DNA of 64,000 nt from Pseudolabrys sp. (GCA_030684935.1 JAUXXH010000031.1:1-64000); one strand, 5' to 3'. Counted from the first letter of the stretch, positions 26,942 to 36,232 are shown. Numbers and translations: made by a program. The notes: generated from the letters alone by a model not told the origin.

Positions 26942-26973
26942 AATCGGAGGCCCGCAATTGCGGGCCTCCGATT
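26942..26973. terminator. Perfect 32-bp inverted repeat
   Basis: aatcggaggcccgcaa|ttgcgggcctccgatt, downstream of the minus-strand glycine-zipper lipoprotein gene. Confidence 0.75.
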
Positions 26974-26986
26974 CATCACGTCAAAA

Positions 26987-27250
26987 TTAGCAAGCCACGC
27001 GAACAGTGCGGCCCGAACGCGTCCGCGTATAGCAGTTCTGCGGAGCGGTGGCGCCGCCGATCATCGCACCACCGGCAGCGCCAATAACGCCACCTGCAAC
27101 CGCGCTGCCGACCGAACCGCCGGCCGCCGCGCCGACCACGGTACCGGCAACGCCGCCGATCGCCGCGCCGGTCAGAGCGCGATCCTGTTGCACGGTGTTA
27201 CAGCCAGCCAGCGCGAACGCCGCAACGCCGATAATGAGAAACTTCTTCAT
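26987..27250 (-). CDS. Glycine-zipper lipoprotein (17-kDa-antigen/YMGG-like)
   Basis: MKKFLIIGVAAFALAGCNTVQQ lipobox, then AAIGGVAGTVVGAAAGGSVGSAVAGGVIGAAGGAMIGG. Confidence 0.82.
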   Translation of the reverse strand: MKKFLIIGVAAFALAGCNTVQQDRALTGAAIGGVAGTVVGAAAGGSVGSAVAGGVIGAAGGAMIGGATAPQNCYTRTRSGRTVRVAC

Positions 27251-27345
27251 CTGGTATCTCCCTAAAATGGTAGTGCCCGATCCCGACAACCGAATGGCAC
27301 GCGCGCCGCAAACGCGGGTCGGTCCAGCCTGAATGCCGCCTCGAT

Positions 27346-27370
27346 AACGCCACGGTGTATCGATGGTTCC
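27346..27370 (-). promoter_or_regulatory. EcfG-type promoter motif upstream of the glycine-zipper lipoprotein
   Basis: Minus strand GGAAC(27370-27366)-N16-CGTT(27349-27346), 95 nt before the start codon. Confidence 0.7.
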
Positions 27371-27396
27371 ATGGCGGGCGTGCAGCTTTTTTCGGG

Positions 27397-27849
27397 CTAC
27401 CGGCGCCGTGATTTGCGTTTTGCCAGGTGGTGCGAGGCCATTTCCGCGCGGGAGCGAAATTCGCGATGCAAAGCCTCCAGTTCCTCGTCATCGAGATCCT
27501 CGATTGAGGCAAACTCGTTCTTGGCGCCTTTCATGGCCAGCACCAGTTCGGACAACTTGAGCTGCACCGCCATCATGTCGCGGTTCTGGGTGTTCTGAAT
27601 CAAAAACACCATCAGGAACGTCACGATCGTGGTGCCGGTATTGATCACCAGTTGCCAGGTGTCGCTGTAGTTGAAGATCGGTCCGGTTACGACCCATGTG
27701 ACCACGACCGCCACGGCCACGATGAATGCTGTCGGATGTCCGCTCCACATCGCCGTCGCCTGGGCAAACTTGGTGAATCGCCGGGTCAGCGCATGCGTGC
27801 CGTTGTATTCTTCAAGGCCGTGGGGATGGTGATCCGTCGCTGACGGCAT
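27397..27849 (-). CDS. Low-affinity iron permease family protein
   Basis: FIVAVAVVVTWVVTGPIFNYSDTWQLVINTGTTIVTFLMVFLIQNTQNRDMMAVQLKLSELV. Confidence 0.9.
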   Translation of the reverse strand: MPSATDHHPHGLEEYNGTHALTRRFTKFAQATAMWSGHPTAFIVAVAVVVTWVVTGPIFNYSDTWQLVINTGTTIVTFLMVFLIQNTQNRDMMAVQLKLSELVLAMKGAKNEFASIEDLDDEELEALHREFRSRAEMASHHLAKRKSRRR

Positions 27850-27924
27850 GGGTGTCTCCGGTGTCTGCTATCGTCAAAAAGTTGGATGGCCGGCCAATGG
27901 TAGATGGCGGCCGGGCGCAGACGG

Positions 27925-30522
27925 CTATTTCAACCTGGGCAGTTTCTGCTTGAACCGTCCGATCGTCGCCCACGGATCCTTGCGCTGACGCGACAGCCGC
28001 GCCGGGAGATTGAGCACGGTGTACGCGTTCGCGCCTTTGAGGCTGCCTAACTCTGCCCAGTCGATCGGTACGGACACCGGCGCGCCGGGCCGGGCGCGGG
28101 TCGAGTAGGGCGCCACGGCCGTGGCCTCGCGGCTGTTGCGCAGGTAGTCGATGAAGATGCGATCGTTGCGTTTGCTTTTGCTGATCGCTGCGGTGTAGCG
28201 ATCCGGCGAATCCGCCGCCATCGCCTCGGCCACGCCGCGCGCGAAGGCCTTCGCCTCGTCCCACGGCGTTGGCGCAATCGGCAGCACGACATGCAGGCCT
28301 TTGCCGCCGGTGGTCTTGAGGAATGTGGTGAGCTTGATACCGGCGAGGCGTTCGCGGACATCGCGGGCCGCCGCAACCACGTCTTTCCAGCCGGTGCCGG
28401 GCCCGGGATCGAGGTCGAACACCAGCCGGTCGGCATTGGCGAGATTATCGCCTTTGCTGCCACGGACATGGACCTCCAACACGCCTGCTTGCACCAGGGA
28501 GATCAGGCCGTCGATGTCCTCGATCGAGATAATCTTGTCGTCGTCCTCCGGGATCAGACTCAGATGATCGGCCGAGATGCCGGCGGCGGCGTGTTTCTGG
28601 AAGAAGCACTGACCGGCGGCACCTTCCGGACAGCGCAGCAGCGAGATCGGCCGGCCCGCGACGTGCGGGCGCATCCATTTCCAGATCGCCTTGTAGAATT
28701 CGGCGAGGTCCCGTTTGGTTACGCCGGCATCTTCCCAGTAGACGCGCTCGGGATTGCTGAGCGCGATGGCGCCGACCGACACCTTGGAGTTGCTCGATTT
28801 GACGGCAGTGGTTTTTTTCGCCGTTTGCTTTTTGGTTTTGGTGACGGGGGCACTTCGTCGCTTGTCCGTTGCAGCCTTCGCTGCGGCGACTTTCTTCACT
28901 TCGCGCACAACTTCTCGCGCATCCTTGTCTTCCCGCAATCCCTGGTACGACGCGTGCCGGACGCGGTCGCCGTGGGTCCAGCCGCGAACGTCAACTTCGA
29001 CGACGGTTGTCGGCGCGACCCAGACCGGGCCGCGGACGCCGCGCTCCTCCGCCGGCAGACTGGCGAATGGCGTGTCGCTCCGCCGCAGCGCCTTCAGTTT
29101 GCGATACAGGTCACGCGCGATTTGGTGGGTGAAGCCGGTGCCGGTGCGTCCGGCATAGCGCAGTTTGTCGCCTTCGTAGACGCCGAGCACCAAGGCGCCG
29201 ACCGCGCGGGCATCCGCCGTCGAGGGCATGAAACCGGCCACGACGAATTCCTGCCGGTCGGAGCATTTGGTCTTGATCCAGTCACGGCTGCGGCCCGACC
29301 GGTAGGGCGCATCTTCGCGCTTCGAGATGATGCCCTCAAGATTCATGCGGCAGGCGTGTTTGAGCAACACCGAGCCGGTTTCGTCGATCGACTCGCTCAG
29401 GCGTATGGCGCCTTTGGCCGGCGCGCGCTTGAGTAACTCGGTCAGCGCCGCCTTGCGCTCACTTAACGGCCGCTGACGCAGATCGGCACCGTCGAGATGC
29501 AGCAGGTCGAACACATAGAACACCATACGATCATGACGGCCAGCCTTGAGGTCCTGCTGCAGTAGCGAGAAACTGGAGACGCCGTCGTCGTCCTCCACCA
29601 CGATCTCGCCGTCAATTAGCGCCGTTTCCGCGGGCAAGTCCGCGACCGCCCCGGCCACGGTGGCGAACTTGCCGGTCCAGTCGAGGCCGTTGCGAGTCAG
29701 CAGTTTGACCTTGCCGCCATCGAGTCGGGCCTGGATGCGGTAGCCGTCGAATTTGATCTCGTGAATCCAGTTGGCGCTGTCGGGCGCATTCTCGGCCAGG
29801 GTTGCAAGGGAAGGGGGGACAAAGTCCGGCAGGGCCGCGCCGCGAGTGGCTTGCTTTTTGGCGGCCTTTTTTCGGGGCGTTGACGCTGTGCTGGCGCGCT
29901 TCGTCGGCTTTGCGCTCTTGGCCGGCTTTTCCGCCGTCGATTTTTTCTTCGCCGCGCCTTTGGCGATTTCGTCAAGAGTGCGGCCGGTCGTGACTGACAG
30001 CGGCATCTCGGCGAGAATATCCTTGTCGCGCTTGCTGCGCGCGGCGGCATCGTCCTGCTTGATCAGCAGCCAGTTGTCGCGCTTCTCGCCGGGCCGCCGG
30101 TGCATGCGCACCAGATGCCAGCCGCCCTGCAGCTTTTCGCCGTCGAGCGTGAAGGCGAGGTGGCCCTTCTTCATGCCCTTCTGCGGATCGGCCTCCGGCT
30201 GCCAGGTGCCGCGATCCCAGATCATCACCGTGCCGCCGCCATACTGGCCCTTGGGAATGGTGCCTTCGAACTTGTTGTAGTCGATCGGATGATCTTCGGT
30301 TTGCACTGCCAGCCGCTTGTTGCCGGGCACCATGCTGGGGCCGCGCGTAACAGCCCAGCTCTTCATGACGCCGTCGAGTTCAAGCCGCAGGTCATAATGC
30401 AGCCGCGTCGCGTCATGTTGCTGGACGACGAAAGCCTGGCCGCGCCTGCGGCCAACCTTGCCTTTCGGTTCGGCGGTGATGCCGAACGCGCGCTTCGAAC
30501 GATAGGTTGTCAGGCCGGCCAT
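27925..30522 (-). CDS. ligD: Multidomain DNA ligase D (phosphoesterase-ligase-polymerase)
   Basis: PE domain HYDLRLELDGVMKSWAVTRGPS; ligase motif IHEIKFDGYRIQARL; polymerase/primase segment VFDLDPGPGTGW...TGGKGLHVVLPI. Confidence 0.93.
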   Translation of the reverse strand: MAGLTTYRSKRAFGITAEPKGKVGRRRGQAFVVQQHDATRLHYDLRLELDGVMKSWAVTRGPSMVPGNKRLAVQTEDHPIDYNKFEGTIPKGQYGGGTVMIWDRGTWQPEADPQKGMKKGHLAFTLDGEKLQGGWHLVRMHRRPGEKRDNWLLIKQDDAAARSKRDKDILAEMPLSVTTGRTLDEIAKGAAKKKSTAEKPAKSAKPTKRASTASTPRKKAAKKQATRGAALPDFVPPSLATLAENAPDSANWIHEIKFDGYRIQARLDGGKVKLLTRNGLDWTGKFATVAGAVADLPAETALIDGEIVVEDDDGVSSFSLLQQDLKAGRHDRMVFYVFDLLHLDGADLRQRPLSERKAALTELLKRAPAKGAIRLSESIDETGSVLLKHACRMNLEGIISKREDAPYRSGRSRDWIKTKCSDRQEFVVAGFMPSTADARAVGALVLGVYEGDKLRYAGRTGTGFTHQIARDLYRKLKALRRSDTPFASLPAEERGVRGPVWVAPTTVVEVDVRGWTHGDRVRHASYQGLREDKDAREVVREVKKVAAAKAATDKRRSAPVTKTKKQTAKKTTAVKSSNSKVSVGAIALSNPERVYWEDAGVTKRDLAEFYKAIWKWMRPHVAGRPISLLRCPEGAAGQCFFQKHAAAGISADHLSLIPEDDDKIISIEDIDGLISLVQAGVLEVHVRGSKGDNLANADRLVFDLDPGPGTGWKDVVAAARDVRERLAGIKLTTFLKTTGGKGLHVVLPIAPTPWDEAKAFARGVAEAMAADSPDRYTAAISKSKRNDRIFIDYLRNSREATAVAPYSTRARPGAPVSVPIDWAELGSLKGANAYTVLNLPARLSRQRKDPWATIGRFKQKLPRLK

Positions 30523-30551
30523 GGCTTACGCGCACTCGGTTTAGCGACCTA

Positions 30552-30576
30552 AACGCCTGATTATACCGAGGGTTCC
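30552..30576 (-). promoter_or_regulatory. EcfG-type promoter motif upstream of ligD
   Basis: Minus strand GGAAC(30576-30572)-N16-CGTT(30555-30552). Confidence 0.75.
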
Positions 30577-30593
30577 GGTTTCCGGCCAGCCGC

Positions 30594-30618
30594 GGAACTT
30601 TCTTTTAGCGGTCGCGTT
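30594..30618 (+). promoter_or_regulatory. EcfG-type promoter motif upstream of the DUF1328 gene
   Basis: GGAAC(30594-30598)-N16-CGTT(30615-30618). Confidence 0.75.
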
Positions 30619-30666
30619 TTATCCGGCATGGAATTCATGTCGCAACCTTAGAGAAAGGGACCTGCC

Positions 30667-30843
30667 ATGATGGGTTGGGCCATTACGTTTTTGATCGTCG
30701 CGCTGATTGCCGCCTTGCTCGGTTTCGGCGGGATTGCCGGCATGGCCGTCGAGGCGGCCAAGATCGTGTTCTTCGTCGCGATCATTCTGTTCGTCATTTC
30801 CGCGATCGTGGGGCTCTTCCGGGGCCGCTCGACGGCGCCCTAA
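30667..30843 (+). CDS. DUF1328-family small membrane protein (58 aa; below the ORF-track size cut-off)
   Basis: Translated by eye: [58 protein letters not shown]. Confidence 0.88.
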
Positions 30844-30860
30844 CGGGAACGCACACAGAA

Positions 30861-30896
30861 AAGCCCCGCGCGACCCAGCGTCGCGCGGGGCTTTTT
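30861..30896 (+). terminator. Rho-independent terminator after DUF1328
   Basis: aagccccgcgcgac-ccagc-gtcgcgcggggcttttt. Confidence 0.9.
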
Positions 30897-30913
30897 CTCG
30901 TTCGGCACGCCGG

Positions 30914-31126
30914 TCAGGCGAACTCTTTTTCCGACAGGGTCAGTTCGCTTTCGGGGGCGACCCGCTCGTGTTTCTCGGTCGCGCTCTTGATGCGGTACAT
31001 CGGATCGCCCGGGTCCTTGTCGGACACCGGCACCAGAAACGTGATCTGATAGGCGCCGGCGGCGGCCTCACGCAGCACTTTCGGCATAAGATCGACGACT
31101 TGGCCGATACTGTATTTGTGCGTCAC
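30914..31126 (-). CDS. Hypothetical small protein (about 70 aa)
   Basis: GTG start: VTHKYSIGQVVDLMPKVLREAAAGAYQITFLVPVSDKDPGDPMYRIKSATEKHERVAPESELTLSEKEFA. Confidence 0.7.
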   Translation of the reverse strand: MTHKYSIGQVVDLMPKVLREAAAGAYQITFLVPVSDKDPGDPMYRIKSATEKHERVAPESELTLSEKEFA

Positions 31127-31398
31127 AAAAACTCCTTTCGTTCGAAAAAGGTAATCAGGTGCCCGATGGCAGGGCGCAGATTCGATTTTCATATATAGGG
31201 ATGGTACCAGCCGATTGCGACGGTCGACGGGAAATTGTCTTCCCATACGCCGGATGGCCGAGGCCCGGATTGTGGTAATCCTCGACTTCCTTGAGCGACG
31301 AGCGCATGCCTCTTATCTAAAAATCGTCGTGAAGGCTCGCAGCCGCGGGGACGCCGCAGCGGCCTTTGGGGCTAGCGAAACGAAAATGGACAGAGAAC

Positions 31399-31686
31399 AT
31401 GAGCAAGGCCAAGCCGACCACGCCACAAAGGAACGACATGAGCCCGGACGCCAAGAAAAGCGACGTCGGACAGGATCCGAAAAAGCCGGTCAATCTACGC
31501 GCCAATGCGATGCCGACGGATGGGTTTGTTCTGTCCGTCGACGGGAAACTGAAGACGCAGTTCGAGACCGAAGCGGATGCCACCGCGGCTGCCGAAAAGC
31601 TCAAGCAGGCGTATCCGGTGATCCAGGTCTCGGTCTATGACGCGATCAAGCGTGTCTATACGCCGGTTGAACTCGCTGGAAAGTAA
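31399..31686 (+). CDS. Hypothetical small protein
   Basis: MSKAKPTTPQRNDMSPDAKKSDVGQ...FVLSVDGKLKTQFETEADATAAAEKLKQAYPVIQVSVYDAIKRVYTPVELAGK. Confidence 0.7.
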   Translation: MSKAKPTTPQRNDMSPDAKKSDVGQDPKKPVNLRANAMPTDGFVLSVDGKLKTQFETEADATAAAEKLKQAYPVIQVSVYDAIKRVYTPVELAGK

Positions 31687-31905
31687 GCCACTCCCGATGT
31701 GCCGCGCCCAAGTCTGCGCGCGGCTTTGGCGGTATACGTATTCATGACCGGGAATTCTGGCGGCGTGACCGGAACCAAGCGTCACCGGTCGGCTTGATAG
31801 ACGTAACCCCAGCTTTCACGACACTCTGCAACGGCATTGGCCGCGGCTTTGCCGCACGGCGGATTGGCGTGTGCTCACGGGTTAAGCTCAGCCAGGAGAA
31901 ATCGA

Positions 31906-32154
31906 ATGCGCAATATGTTCACGGCAGGATTGGTGGCGTTCACGCTGGTTGCGATACCCGTCGCGGTTCAGGCCGGCACGCTGGAAGGCGTCGCCATCGG
32001 CGCCGGTTCCGGCGCGCTGATTGCTGGGCCTCCGGGCGCCATTGTCGGCGGCGTGATTGGCGGTGTGGTCGGCGGCCCGAATGTCGTGCCGCGCAAGCGT
32101 TACCGCCAGTGCTGGACCAATCGCAACGGCAACAGGCAGTGCCGCTGGCGTTAG
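31906..32154 (+). CDS. Hypothetical secreted glycine-rich protein
   Basis: Signal peptide MRNMFTAGLVAFTLVAIPVAVQA; glycine-zipper-like stretch; C-terminal YRQCWTNRNGNRQCRWR. Confidence 0.75.
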   Translation: MRNMFTAGLVAFTLVAIPVAVQAGTLEGVAIGAGSGALIAGPPGAIVGGVIGGVVGGPNVVPRKRYRQCWTNRNGNRQCRWR

Positions 32155-32346
32155 AACCGTCTGATCTGTCAGCAGATTCCGGGGTGGCGACGGCCGCTCC
32201 GGGTCGCTGACGGCGCTGCCAATCGCGCAGCGAAGTTATCCACCAGTTGTATAATATAGCTCAGACGGGAAGCGGCCGGCGCGTCAGAATTTCACTGTTG
32301 CCCGAACGTATCCGATTCCCCCATCGATCCCCCGCGTTCGGTCAAC

Positions 32347-32375
32347 GACCCCGGCTGGCGACCCCAGCCGGGGTC
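32347..32375 (+). promoter_or_regulatory. Strong stem-loop upstream of the DUF3309 gene
   Basis: gaccccggctgg-cgacc-ccagccggggtc, perfect 12-bp stem ending 34 nt before the ATG; no T run follows. Confidence 0.5.
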
Positions 32376-32409
32376 ATGCTTATGGCCCCGAGGAAATGGA
32401 GATCAGGCG

Positions 32410-32574
32410 ATGTCACTAGGGCTCATTCTGGTCGTCGTGCTTGTCATCTTTTTGCTCGGCGGTTTCAGCGGCCGCTTCGGCGGCTACGGCTACGGCTATG
32501 GCCACGGCGGCGTCGGTATCATCGGTGCAGTGCTGATTGTCATTCTGATTCTGCTTCTGCTCGGACGAATTTGA
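32410..32574 (+). CDS. DUF3309-family small membrane protein (54 aa; below the ORF-track size cut-off)
   Basis: Translated by eye: MSLGLILVVVLVIFLLGGFSGRFGGYGYGYGHGGVGIIGAVLIVILILLLLGRI*. Confidence 0.82.
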   Translation: MSLGLILVVVLVIFLLGGFSGRFGGYGYGYGHGGVGIIGAVLIVILILLLLGRI

Positions 32575-32648
32575 GCTGCAGGCGCTGCGAAAAACAACGC
32601 CGGCGTCCATCCGCTCAACATCACGCGGTGTTTGACGACGGACCGGGC

Positions 32649-33188
32649 TTACTCGCCGCCGGCGAGCACGGCGCGGGTCTGTTCGTCCGGGCCGAAGTCA
32701 TTGACGCCGTCGATCGAGAGCAACTCGGCCAGCCGGGTGCGGGCCCGATTGACGCGCGACTTGATGGTGCCGACCGCACAGCCGCAGATGTTGGCGGCTT
32801 CTTCGTAGGAGAAGCCCGACGCGCCGACCAGGATCAGCGCTTCACGCTGGTCCGAGGGCAGTTGCGCCAGCGCCTTGCGGAATTCGGTGAACTCCACCTG
32901 GCCATGCTGCTCGGGCTGCGACTTCAGCGAGTCGGCGTAATGGCCATCGCTGTCCTCGACCTCGCGGCGCCGCTTGCGGTATTCCGAGCGGAAATGGTTG
33001 CGCAGGATCGTGAACAGCCAGGCCGACATGTTGGTGCCGGGCTGAAATGAGTCGATGTTGGCCAGCGCGCGAACCATCGTTTCCTGCACGAGATCGTCGG
33101 CGCGATCAACGTTCCCGCACAGCGAGATCGCAAATGCGCGGAGACTTGGCACCGCGGCAAGGACAGACTTGCGGACTGATTCATCCAT
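32649..33188 (-). CDS. ecfG: General stress response ECF sigma factor EcfG
   Basis: ECF sigma: LVQETMVRALANIDSFQPGTNMSAWLFTILRNHFRSEYRKRRREVED, QREALILVGASGFSYEEAANICGCAVGTIKSRVNRAR; co-located with nepR/phyR. Confidence 0.93.
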   Translation of the reverse strand: MDESVRKSVLAAVPSLRAFAISLCGNVDRADDLVQETMVRALANIDSFQPGTNMSAWLFTILRNHFRSEYRKRRREVEDSDGHYADSLKSQPEQHGQVEFTEFRKALAQLPSDQREALILVGASGFSYEEAANICGCAVGTIKSRVNRARTRLAELLSIDGVNDFGPDEQTRAVLAGGE

Positions 33189-33415
33189 CAGTGCTTGTCC
33201 TTCTTGTCAGTGCCGTCCAGACGGCTGACCAGATCGGCGAACCGGTCCGGCACGCCCTGGTTGACCACGTCATCATACATGGCGCGGAGTTGCTGGCCGA
33301 GACGGGCCTGGACCTCTCGGCCCAGTTTTGCCGGCTTGGCCTCTGACTTTTTTCGACTGGCCGCGCTTTCCATTGGTTTTTGCTGTCCCACGGGCTTACG
33401 ATCTTCTTCGTTCAT
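33188..33415 (-). CDS. nepR: NepR anti-sigma factor
   Basis: LGREVQARLGQQLRAMYDDVVNQGVPDRFADLVSRLD is the NepR core; stop overlaps the ecfG start. Confidence 0.92.
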   Translation of the reverse strand: MNEEDRKPVGQQKPMESAASRKKSEAKPAKLGREVQARLGQQLRAMYDDVVNQGVPDRFADLVSRLDGTDKKDKH

Positions 33416-33478
33416 GTGTGGCCCCAATTCCCTTTGCCCCAACCGGAGCTTAGGTTTCCCCCTCTGACGTTTATTCAA

Positions 33479-33503
33479 AACCGCTGACCGGACAGTTGGT
33501 TCC
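33479..33503 (-). promoter_or_regulatory. EcfG-type promoter motif (one mismatch) upstream of nepR-ecfG
   Basis: Minus strand GGAAC(33503-33499)-N16-GGTT(33482-33479). Confidence 0.6.
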
Positions 33504-33511
33504 ACAATGAG

Positions 33512-33536
33512 GGAACTTTTTTCAAAGGACGACGTT
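33512..33536 (+). promoter_or_regulatory. EcfG-type promoter motif upstream of phyR
   Basis: GGAAC(33512-33516)-N16-CGTT(33533-33536). Confidence 0.78.
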
Positions 33537-33613
33537 GGGAGCTGTGAACAGCTTACGAATGTTCGGGGCGATGCCCATCTAAGCAGGGCTCTAATCGGTT
33601 TCGGGAGGGATTT

Positions 33614-34423
33614 TTGTCGACATCTCAATCAGTTGCGCAACATCTGCCGTATCTGCGGCGCTATGCCCGGGCCTTGTCCGGCAGCCAGCCGTCCGGTGAT
33701 GCCTATGTAGCGGCCACGCTTGAGGCGCTGGTGCAGGATCCCAAGGTCCTGGAGGACAACGCCTCGACCCGGATCGCCCTGTACCGGCTTTTCACCAAAA
33801 TCTGGAATTCGGTCGCTCTGAACGGCCGGCCAACCGTGGCCCCAGGCATCGACCCGAACCAGCCCGTCGAACGGCATCTCGCCCAAATTGCGCCGATGCC
33901 GCGTCAGGCGTTCCTGCTGGTGGCGCTGGAAGGCTTGTCGGAGGATGATGCCGCCAAGGTGCTGGACATCGATGTGCCGAAGCTGCGCGAACTCGTTGAA
34001 GAGTCCGGGCGCGAACTGGCCGCCGAAATCGCCACTGACGTTTTGATCATCGAAGACGAGACTTTCATCGCGCTCGATCTCGAGGGTCTGGTTGAAGGTC
34101 TCGGCCATAAGGTGCTGGGCGTCGCCCGGACCCATTCCGAAGCCATCGCTCTGGCCAAAGTGAAGCGGCCGGGCATCATTCTCGCCGATATCCAGCTCGC
34201 CGACGGCAGCTCGGGTCTCGATGCGGTCAACGAAATGCTGCGCACCTTCGAAGTGCCGGTGATCTTCATCACAGCCTATCCGGAGCGCTTCCTGACCGGT
34301 GAACGTCCTGAGCCGGCGTTCCTGATCGCCAAGCCGTTCCAGCCGGCAACCGTGTCGGCCGTGCTCAGTCAGGCGCTGTTTTTCGAGCGCAACGCCAAAC
34401 GGCGCGAGCGCAAGGCCAGCTAA
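33614..34423 (+). CDS. phyR: PhyR response regulator (sigma-like domain plus receiver)
   Basis: LPYLRRYARALSGSQPSGDAYVAATLEAL, C-terminal receiver DVLIIEDETFIALDLEGLVEGLGHKVLGVARTHSEAIALA; TTG start. Confidence 0.94.
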   Translation: MSTSQSVAQHLPYLRRYARALSGSQPSGDAYVAATLEALVQDPKVLEDNASTRIALYRLFTKIWNSVALNGRPTVAPGIDPNQPVERHLAQIAPMPRQAFLLVALEGLSEDDAAKVLDIDVPKLRELVEESGRELAAEIATDVLIIEDETFIALDLEGLVEGLGHKVLGVARTHSEAIALAKVKRPGIILADIQLADGSSGLDAVNEMLRTFEVPVIFITAYPERFLTGERPEPAFLIAKPFQPATVSAVLSQALFFERNAKRRERKAS

Positions 34424-34445
34424 CCAGCGCACGGCCTTAAAAGAA

Positions 34446-34480
34446 AAGCCCGCCGCGGGAGTGTCCGCGGCGGGCTTTTT
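34446..34480 (+). terminator. Rho-independent terminator after phyR
   Basis: agcccgccgcgg-gagtgt-ccgcggcgggcttttt. Confidence 0.9.
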
Positions 34481-34501
34481 CGTGGGGCGTTCAAACCGAA
34501 T

Positions 34502-34858
34502 TCAGGGGACGCGATCCTTGCGCGCCAGCGCATAGCCGAGCAGTCCAGCTTCGACCAGCATGGCCAACTGCATTTGATGTTGCGGCGCCAGGGCCGGGGC
34601 GGTGGCCTCGGCGGTTTTGCGGCGCATCGCCCAAAAGACGATCAGCGCAATCAGCGCCACGGTGCCATAAATCCCGCCAATGATCAGCCGGGCGTTGATC
34701 AGCCCGTACTGCAATTCCAGCGCCAAGGTGGCGGCGATGGTAAAATGATAAATCGCAATCAGCGCCGCAATCCCGATGACAGCGGCCACCAAGCAAATAC
34801 GCAGCACGCGGCCGAGCAACTGCCCGGCCGCCGCCGTGACCATCTGATCAAGTCGCAT
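34502..34858 (-). CDS. Hypothetical membrane protein (2-3 TM)
   Basis: MRLDQMVTAAAGQLLGRVLRICLVAAVIGIAALIAIYHF...; directly downstream of the DUF883-like gene. Confidence 0.75.
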   Translation of the reverse strand: MRLDQMVTAAAGQLLGRVLRICLVAAVIGIAALIAIYHFTIAATLALELQYGLINARLIIGGIYGTVALIALIVFWAMRRKTAEATAPALAPQHQMQLAMLVEAGLLGYALARKDRVP

Positions 34859-34862
34859 GGGA

Positions 34863-35210
34863 TTACCGGCGGTTGGCCAGCCCGGCGAGAAAGCCGATGC
34901 CGGCGGCAATGCCCAGCATCAGCAGTGGCCGGTGCTCGACCTCATCGGTGATTTTCTTGAACGCATCGGCGCCGATCTTGGTCGCCTCGTCGGCGACGGA
35001 CTTGCTGACCCCGGAGGCGCTGTCACGGACCCGCTCCATGATGCCGGCCAAAGCCTCGCTGACGAAGTCACCGACATCGCTGGAGGCGCCGGAAGCTTCG
35101 GTCTTGGCGGTGCTGGAGAGCCGGCGCAGCCGCTTTTCCAGATCGCCCATCAGGTCTTCGATCGCCGCGATCTCATCGGCGGCCACGGATTTAGCTGTAC
35201 GCGCGCTCAT
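34863..35210 (-). CDS. DUF883/ElaB-YqjD-like membrane-anchored protein
   Basis: MSARTAKSVAADEIAAIEDLMGDLEKRLRRLS...amphipathic...C-terminal TM HRPLLMLGIAAGIGFLAGLANRR. Confidence 0.82.
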   Translation of the reverse strand: MSARTAKSVAADEIAAIEDLMGDLEKRLRRLSSTAKTEASGASSDVGDFVSEALAGIMERVRDSASGVSKSVADEATKIGADAFKKITDEVEHRPLLMLGIAAGIGFLAGLANRR

Positions 35211-35253
35211 TGAACACCTCAGGCGTTTGATTTGTCCTGCATCTCGCCGGGTG

Positions 35254-35278
35254 AACGATTGGTCGAGAGGAAAGTTCC
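35254..35278 (-). promoter_or_regulatory. EcfG-type promoter motif upstream of the DUF883-like gene
   Basis: Minus strand GGAAC(35278-35274)-N16-CGTT(35257-35254), 43 nt before the ATG. Confidence 0.75.
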
Positions 35279-35336
35279 GTAAGTGCTGGAACAAAGTTCC
35301 GCGTCCTTCGCGCGCAGCCTTCCGCATTAGCCCGTA

Positions 35337-35361
35337 GGAACATAACAGGACGATCGCGGTT
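35337..35361 (+). promoter_or_regulatory. EcfG-type promoter motif (one mismatch) upstream of the hypothetical at 35412
   Basis: GGAAC(35337-35341)-N16-GGTT(35358-35361). Confidence 0.5.
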
Positions 35362-35411
35362 GTTCTTCTGATATCGGCACGGCGAAGTTCGCCGGTGGAT
35401 GGAGCAAACCG

Positions 35412-35705
35412 ATGCGCGATTTCGTGTCCTACTTCTCGGCCGGTGCGCTGGCTGCCTTGGCCATCGTTGTCATCGCGCAACCGGGCGACGCCAATACCGC
35501 GTCCGAACGGGCCTCCATGACCTCGATGTCCAAGGCGCCGCTGCAAACGGTCGATCGCAGCAACAAGGGCGACCGCCTGGCGCCGGCCACCGCCGTGCGC
35601 CCGCAGCCGCTGGAGCGGCCGCGCATGATGGCAGGTTGCGATCCGGCCTTCAGCCCGCTATCGACCTCGGCCGCTGTCAATTTTGCCGCCCGCTGCGTTG
35701 CTTAG
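35412..35705 (+). CDS. Hypothetical exported protein
   Basis: MRDFVSYFSAGALAALAIVVIAQPGDANT...PRMMAGCDPAFSPLSTSAAVNFAARCVA. Confidence 0.7.
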   Translation: MRDFVSYFSAGALAALAIVVIAQPGDANTASERASMTSMSKAPLQTVDRSNKGDRLAPATAVRPQPLERPRMMAGCDPAFSPLSTSAAVNFAARCVA

Positions 35706-35758: not shown

Positions 35759-36232
35759 ATGCATAATCATCTGATCGCTTGTCTTGCTATCGGGATGTTG
35801 GCGGCAGCCGCGGTGCCGGTCGACGCCGCGGCTCAGGCTCCGCTGCGAGCCAAGACCGGCACGCTCACCTGCGACACTTCAGGCGATATTGGACTGATCG
35901 TCACGGCGAAGAAACGTCTGATCTGCCTCTTCACACCTGCGCGGCCCGGCCCTCGCGAGGTTTATTCGGGAGCCATCGTCAAATTTGGTGCCGATGCCGC
36001 CAAAGCGGCGGGCGCTGAAATGGTCTGGACCGTCTATGCGCCGGCCAATCGCCGGTTTGGCATATTGGCTGGGCAATACGGTGGGGCCGCTGCCAGAAAA
36101 AGCGCCGGTGGCAATACGCTTGTGGGCGGTTCGGCATCGGCCGTTACCTTGCAACCGATGGTGACGGAAGGGGAGGGCGGCGCAAATCTGGCCACCAGCG
36201 TCGTTGCCCTGGAATTGCATCCCGCACGGTAA
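35759..36232 (+). CDS. DUF992-like secreted protein
   Basis: Signal peptide; GTLTCDTSGDIGLIVTAKKRLICLFTP...YSGAIVKFGADAAKAAGAEMVWTVYAP. Confidence 0.78.
   Translation: MHNHLIACLAIGMLAAAAVPVDAAAQAPLRAKTGTLTCDTSGDIGLIVTAKKRLICLFTPARPGPREVYSGAIVKFGADAAKAAGAEMVWTVYAPANRRFGILAGQYGGAAARKSAGGNTLVGGSASAVTLQPMVTEGEGGANLATSVVALELHPAR

Follow-up and report, generated by a model that had tools for sequence, protein, structure and literature searches.

Background

In the Alphaproteobacteria, the general stress response (GSR) is controlled through a partner switch between PhyR, NepR and the sigma factor EcfG, which is an established mechanism (PMC8103513). At the described locus nepR and ecfG form an operon that is divergent from phyR, and both units have GSR-dependent promoters; such autoregulation of phyR and nepR-ecfG is textbook knowledge (PMC8103513). 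The EcfG promoter motif is likewise known (PMC3892343, PMC7083833). In Sphingopyxis granuli TFA it is GGAAC-N16-CGTT, with a flexible -10 box, and ku-ligD is a direct target (PMC7083833). EcfG control has also been published for ku (PMC6599016). In the ecfG1-phyR region of Rhizobium etli, where the motif is again GGAAC-N16-CGTT, an extra EcfG target lies beside the core genes; this is the ncRNA ReC64, the start of which was mapped by 5' RACE (PMC3892343).

An earlier note, made from sequence, described seven EcfG-type motifs in about 8 kb around phyR-nepR-ecfG in a Pseudolabrys sp. and suggested that the regulator is located within the regulon it controls. Are these motifs promoters of the sigma factor encoded among them? 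Or, are they promoters of another sigma factor, operators, or matches to a short motif that arose by chance? Here we investigate the 64-kb stretch of DNA that contains them (GCA_030684935.1 JAUXXH010000031.1:1-64000), referred to as the window, in the context of its genome (3.67 Mb in 59 contigs, 89.6% complete) and of 80 phyR loci. These are mostly from Xanthobacteraceae and are related, hence not independent, and their genes were called with a home-made gene caller trained on all loci.

The regulator genes

Three genes in the window make up the regulatory core. The start codons given for nepR and phyR are inferred ones.

32649-33188, minus strand: ecfG, encoding a sigma factor of the ECF type that has both region 2 and region 4 (profile matches)
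33191-33415, minus strand: nepR, encoding the anti-sigma factor and sharing an operon with ecfG (PF18557)
33614-34423, plus strand: phyR, sigma-like domain and receiver domain, TTG start (profile and structure matches)

NepR matches PF18557 with 56 bits against a cut-off of 25.7, and is below the cut-off of the narrower Caulobacter-type NCBIfam model; no second nepR was found in the assembly, which is 89.6% complete. PhyR is above the cut-offs of PF22029, PF22233 and PF00072, scores 361 bits with the NCBIfam PhyR model NF006623 (cut-off 240), and in the PDB is closest to 4g97 and to 4qic, an entry that bears the name PhyR. The sigma regions, the intergenic gap of 2 bp behind nepR and the best PDB match (5uxx at 199.6 bits, the next match having 81) identify the sigma factor, as far as such comparisons go, as ECF15-type and part of the nepR operon. 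Judged from these matches, the trio of NepR, PhyR and an EcfG-like sigma factor is genuine, and EcfG-type promoter motifs precede both nepR-ecfG (33479-33503) and phyR (33512-33536), as expected of a GSR core.

No sensor kinase gene lies beside phyR, and there is no HWE_HK match within the 64-kb window. The genome has eleven matches to this HWE-kinase profile, on contigs C25, C1, C59, C55, C13, C34 and others, and the eleven proteins are candidates for the PhyR kinase. One of the matches, at C34:76788, is on the window's own contig, just past the window edge.

Seven promoter motifs and the genes behind them

A pattern search of the window returned the five GGAAC-N16-CGTT and two GGAAC-N16-GGTT sites with exactly the coordinates and strands reported before. 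The distance from -10 box to start codon is given for each.

27346-27370, minus strand: EcfG-type promoter GGAAC-N16-CGTT of the Gly-zipper lipoprotein gene (exact match; boxes unchanged in sister species L031); 27346 to 27250, 95 nt
30552-30576, minus strand: EcfG-type promoter GGAAC-N16-CGTT of ligD, probably also of the PF04120 gene (exact match; boxes kept and spacer altered in L031); 30552 to 30522, 29 nt
30594-30618, plus strand: EcfG-type promoter GGAAC-N16-CGTT of the DUF1328 gene (exact match); 30618 to 30667, 48 nt
33479-33503, minus strand: EcfG-type promoter GGAAC-N16-GGTT of nepR-ecfG (exact match); 33479 to 33415, 63 nt
33512-33536, plus strand: EcfG-type promoter GGAAC-N16-CGTT of phyR (exact match); 33536 to 33614, 77 nt
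35254-35278, minus strand: EcfG-type promoter GGAAC-N16-CGTT of the DUF883-like/holin-like pair (exact match; boxes kept in L031); 35254 to 35210, 43 nt
35337-35361, plus strand: EcfG-type promoter GGAAC-N16-GGTT of the 97-aa exported protein gene, possibly also of DUF992 (exact match); 35361 to 35412, 50 nt

All seven read towards the downstream start codon and, given the start codons chosen here, all are intergenic and within about 100 nt of that codon (29-95 nt), as had been claimed. Each thus has the sequence of an EcfG-dependent promoter, with GGAAC and [C/G]GTT 16-17 nt apart upstream of a start. The scan covered spacers of 15-18 nt and several variant -10 boxes. There is no eighth GGAAC-N16-[CG]GTT site anywhere in the 64-kb window, nor any version with a 15- or 17-nt spacer, and the weaker variants outside the island number three, each having an 18-nt spacer.

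The genes in and beside the island, other than the regulators, are as follows.

26987-27250, minus strand: small Gly-zipper lipoprotein with lipobox PF08139 (profile match)
27397-27849, minus strand: membrane protein of family PF04120, named 'low affinity iron permease' (profile match)
27925-30522, minus strand: LigD, full-length, its 3'-phosphoesterase, primase-polymerase and ATP-dependent ligase domains all complete (scores exceed the DNA ligase D cut-offs)
30667-30843, plus strand: DUF1328 small membrane protein of the YtjA type (profile match)
32410-32574: DUF3309 protein (Pfam/NCBIfam)
34502-34861, minus strand: membrane protein with two helices and a weak likeness to Phage_holin_3_6, PF07332 (best orthologue E-value 1.8e-4)
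34863-35210, minus strand: ElaB/YqjD-like protein with a DUF883 C-terminal Gly-zipper (weak profile match, under the Pfam cut-off)
35412-35705, plus strand: predicted 97-aa exported protein without a Pfam family
35759-36232, plus strand: DUF992 protein (profile match)

The genes served by the seven sites span about 26987 to 35705, slightly wider than the 27346-35361 first described. The PF04120 gene is probably co-transcribed behind ligD, from which it is separated by a 75-bp gap, and the holin-like gene at 34502-34861 probably comes second in the operon downstream of the 35254 promoter. A perfect 30-bp palindrome, ATCGGAGGCCCGCAATTGCGGGCCTCCGAT (26943-26972), separates the Gly-zipper lipoprotein gene from an RlpA-like gene. 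It is terminator-like, so the RlpA-like gene is probably outside the reach of the 27346 promoter.

Two further places in the island resemble parts of the motif. At 31771-31795 a degenerate GGAAC-N16-GCTT lies upstream of a Gly-zipper gene at 31906, the orthologue of which in locus L034 has an exact motif 83 nt upstream; this may be a weak eighth site. Between the divergent promoters at 35254 and 35337 is a palindrome, GGAACAAAGTTCC (35288-35300), which amounts to two additional -35-like boxes lacking a matching -10 box.

The promoter pairs stand back to back. The -35 boxes of the ligD and DUF1328 promoters are 17 bp apart and those of nepR and phyR 8 bp, and one may speculate that with the latter spacing two polymerases cannot occupy both promoters at once.

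Conservation of the motif around phyR

Across the 80 loci the motif density is 1.7 per kb directly upstream of phyR and 0.3-0.8 per kb for several kb downstream of it, compared with 0.02-0.10 per kb for a reversed control motif. Where the loci reach 6.5 kb to either side of phyR, the motif occurs at 0.38 per kb within that distance and at 0.037 per kb beyond it. Upstream regions carry the motif in about 20-50% of cases at +1 to +6 kb from phyR and in 6-26% in most bands from -1 to -6 kb, with none at -2 to -3 kb and 0-4% farther than 7 kb. The spacing, examined without bias in upstream non-coding DNA of the 80 loci, is also restricted: among 169 GGAAC sites in the 0.3-3 kb band, [CG]GTT follows at 16 or 17 nt in 47 and 26, and at any other spacing in 0-5.

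The motif stays with orthologous genes even when gene order differs. It precedes nepR in 64/76 and phyR in 63/80 of the loci, the 97-aa protein gene in 25/30, the DUF883-like gene in 15/23, DUF1328 in 14/19, PF04120 in 15/29 and the Gly-zipper lipoprotein gene in 4/4, while DUF992, whose own motif is absent here, yet has one in 19/26 relatives. In each of these families the reversed control motif was found 0 times across the 80 phyR loci. The divergent nepR/phyR pair is kept in 67/80 loci when any first -10 base is allowed. In sister species L031 the boxes are unchanged at six sites and the spacers altered at several; the 30594 site of DUF1328 has no counterpart there. Altogether, 250 genes are preceded by the motif in the 80 loci, and almost all belong to 16 families of at least three members. 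Those that are absent or without an exact motif here include CsbD-like, DUF3309 and L,D-transpeptidase-like families, the CsbD and transpeptidase names coming from our reading of the sequences.

Could the sites belong to another ECF sigma factor that recognises a comparable -35 box? Boxes that contain AAC are read by many ECF sigma factors, but we consider this very unlikely, given the clustering of the sites round phyR-nepR-ecfG in 80 loci and the identity of the full motif with published EcfG promoters (PMC3892343, PMC7083833). It is more improbable still that the GGAAC pairs are inverted repeats acting as transcription-factor operators rather than sigma-factor promoters. The divergent -35 boxes do form GGTTCC-N8-GGAAC at 33498-33516, and GGAACAAAGTTCC would fit the same pattern, but the site at 27346 is single and unpaired, the second element is fixed at 16/17 nt, and relatives show gaps of 6 to 25 bp between paired -35 boxes.

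These gaps had looked bimodal (6-10 and 16-21 bp; 67 loci), which led us to consider helical phasing of back-to-back promoters. This was rejected on order-wide divergent pairs, which have a strong mode at 7-11 bp and no further 10.5-bp periodicity (p = 0.53). In genus g102 (e.g. G219, G262 and G299) divergent EcfG-type pairs have a constant gap of 29-31 bp with an A/T-rich, TTTTTT-like core, where elsewhere 7-11 bp is usual. One locus, L045 (JACRAS010000244.1), is titled Betaproteobacteria bacterium and contains an alphaproteobacterial phyR locus 91% identical to that of the window; it is probably a mislabelled bin.

Clustering in the genome

The earlier note had argued from 4^9 that the motif should occur by chance well under once in 8 kb. 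This is too simple: across its 3.67 Mb the genome has 81 SGTT sites, and the reversed control has 75, which is no excess, so the 9-base pattern by itself does not discriminate, and the genome-wide count was dropped as evidence. Position and clustering do discriminate, and the conclusion about the cluster survives proper nulls. Dinucleotide shuffles give 0.58 CGTT and 0.26 GGTT sites per 64 kb, or about 0.1 in 8 kb. When 81 sites were placed at random 20,000 times, the largest 8-kb cluster was six, reached twice, and seven never occurred. Seven sites within 8 kb are far beyond chance. A weight matrix trained on the relatives ranks exactly these seven first in the window, where they alone score at least 15 (shuffles: mean 0.83, largest 6). 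The reversed window sequence has six sites at that score, so the matrix score alone is not decisive.

All seven sites lie in one 8-kb region, between genes and correctly oriented; their spacing is fixed and conserved, and the control pattern is nearly absent from orthologues. The notion that GC-rich DNA yields them by chance as matches to a short degenerate motif, which the genome-wide and reversed-window counts would favour, is refuted by the footprinting and hardly deserves credence.

A search of the genome by pattern, in which 3-8 kb stretches around the hits were examined, gave 73 hits outside the island. Most of these, 52, are intergenic, and in 37 cases a gene starts no more than 250 nt downstream, mostly at 23-54 nt. 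The island makes up 0.2% of the genome yet accounts for about one in six of the well-placed sites. Behind the outside hits are genes for Ku and for proteins that, on our reading of their sequences, resemble CsbD, YciF/DUF892, a general-stress short-chain dehydrogenase and general stress protein 26.

End joining

LigD here has the ligase, polymerase and phosphoesterase domains of bacterial non-homologous end joining (NHEJ). There is no ku gene in the island of this genome, though ligD is kept there; its Ku partner is encoded on contig C38 (L111, C38:71557-75105), with GGAAC-N16-CGTT 39 nt upstream. This is the sole ku found in the genome, the 89.6% completeness limiting what can be said of a second. 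It is divergent, about 52% identical to the island ku of relatives, and apparently a paralogue replacing the island ku. Adjacent ku and ligD, present in the island of many Pseudolabrys-group relatives, occur near ecfG in 12/80 phyR loci, where 5 of the 12 ku genes have the motif, and in the genus 14 of 30 ku genes have it. Of 19 relatives that have ligD in the phyR locus, just one, the sister species, has a ligD motif.

A stress response core among its probable targets

The locus is very probably an alphaproteobacterial GSR core with an adjacent cluster of its own EcfG targets. The placing of the regulator within its own regulon, as first suggested, is supported: we infer it from the identity of the trio and from footprinting, since in the 80 loci the fixed-spacing bipartite motif clusters at distances up to about 6-7 kb from phyR. 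The motif also agrees with mapped EcfG promoters (PMC3892343, PMC7083833, PMC6599016); against this reading, two of the seven sites have GGTT as the -10 box, the ligD motif recurs in the sister species alone, and the genome-wide count barely exceeds that of the reversed control.

Under stress, phosphorylated PhyR would bind NepR and so free EcfG. RNA polymerase with EcfG, which presumably binds these sites, would then read the seven GGAAC-N16-[CG]GTT promoters. Two of them, back to back, would amplify nepR-ecfG and phyR and reinforce the switch; the others would turn on the Gly-zipper lipoprotein gene, ligD with the PF04120 gene, DUF1328, the DUF883-like/holin-like pair and the 97-aa exported protein gene. 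On this scheme, transcription would start at these sites and be induced by stress.

We suggest, tentatively and with some doubt, that in this family the region of about 12 kb around phyR could be a selected chromosomal neighbourhood in which stress genes, including ku-ligD, are brought together and kept near the regulator despite gene turnover, perhaps for joint local activation or for joint inheritance of target and regulator.

Comparison with known systems

The cluster is real and is largely an expected feature of a known stress system, recurring in dozens of related species. In the open-access literature we found neither a target cluster centred on phyR nor a core locus containing ku-ligD described. 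For Pseudolabrys and its relatives, a group that has been little studied, the cluster offers a regulon map based on sequence, and it links DNA end joining with the general stress switch through both location and promoter. The 97-aa exported protein, DUF992, DUF1328 and the DUF883-like/holin-like pair become testable core stress genes, and the conservation of the cluster raises the question of why general stress targets assemble round their own regulator.

In the enterobacterial RpoS regulon, DUF883-like (ElaB; PMC6389858), DUF1328 (YtjA) and CsbD (YjbJ; PMC5437024) proteins are also under a general stress sigma factor; the sigma factor and switch are unrelated, and the parallel is in gene content only. 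The arrangement of nepR-ecfG and phyR is that of the described EcfG/PhyR/NepR locus (PMC8103513), but here at least five further motif-bearing transcription units lie within about 6.5 kb, and the sensor kinase gene is missing from beside phyR. Whereas the extra target beside ecfG1-phyR of R. etli is an ncRNA (PMC3892343), the extra targets here are several protein genes. Unlike in S. granuli TFA (PMC7083833), ligD, and in relatives also ku, is inside the core regulatory locus itself.
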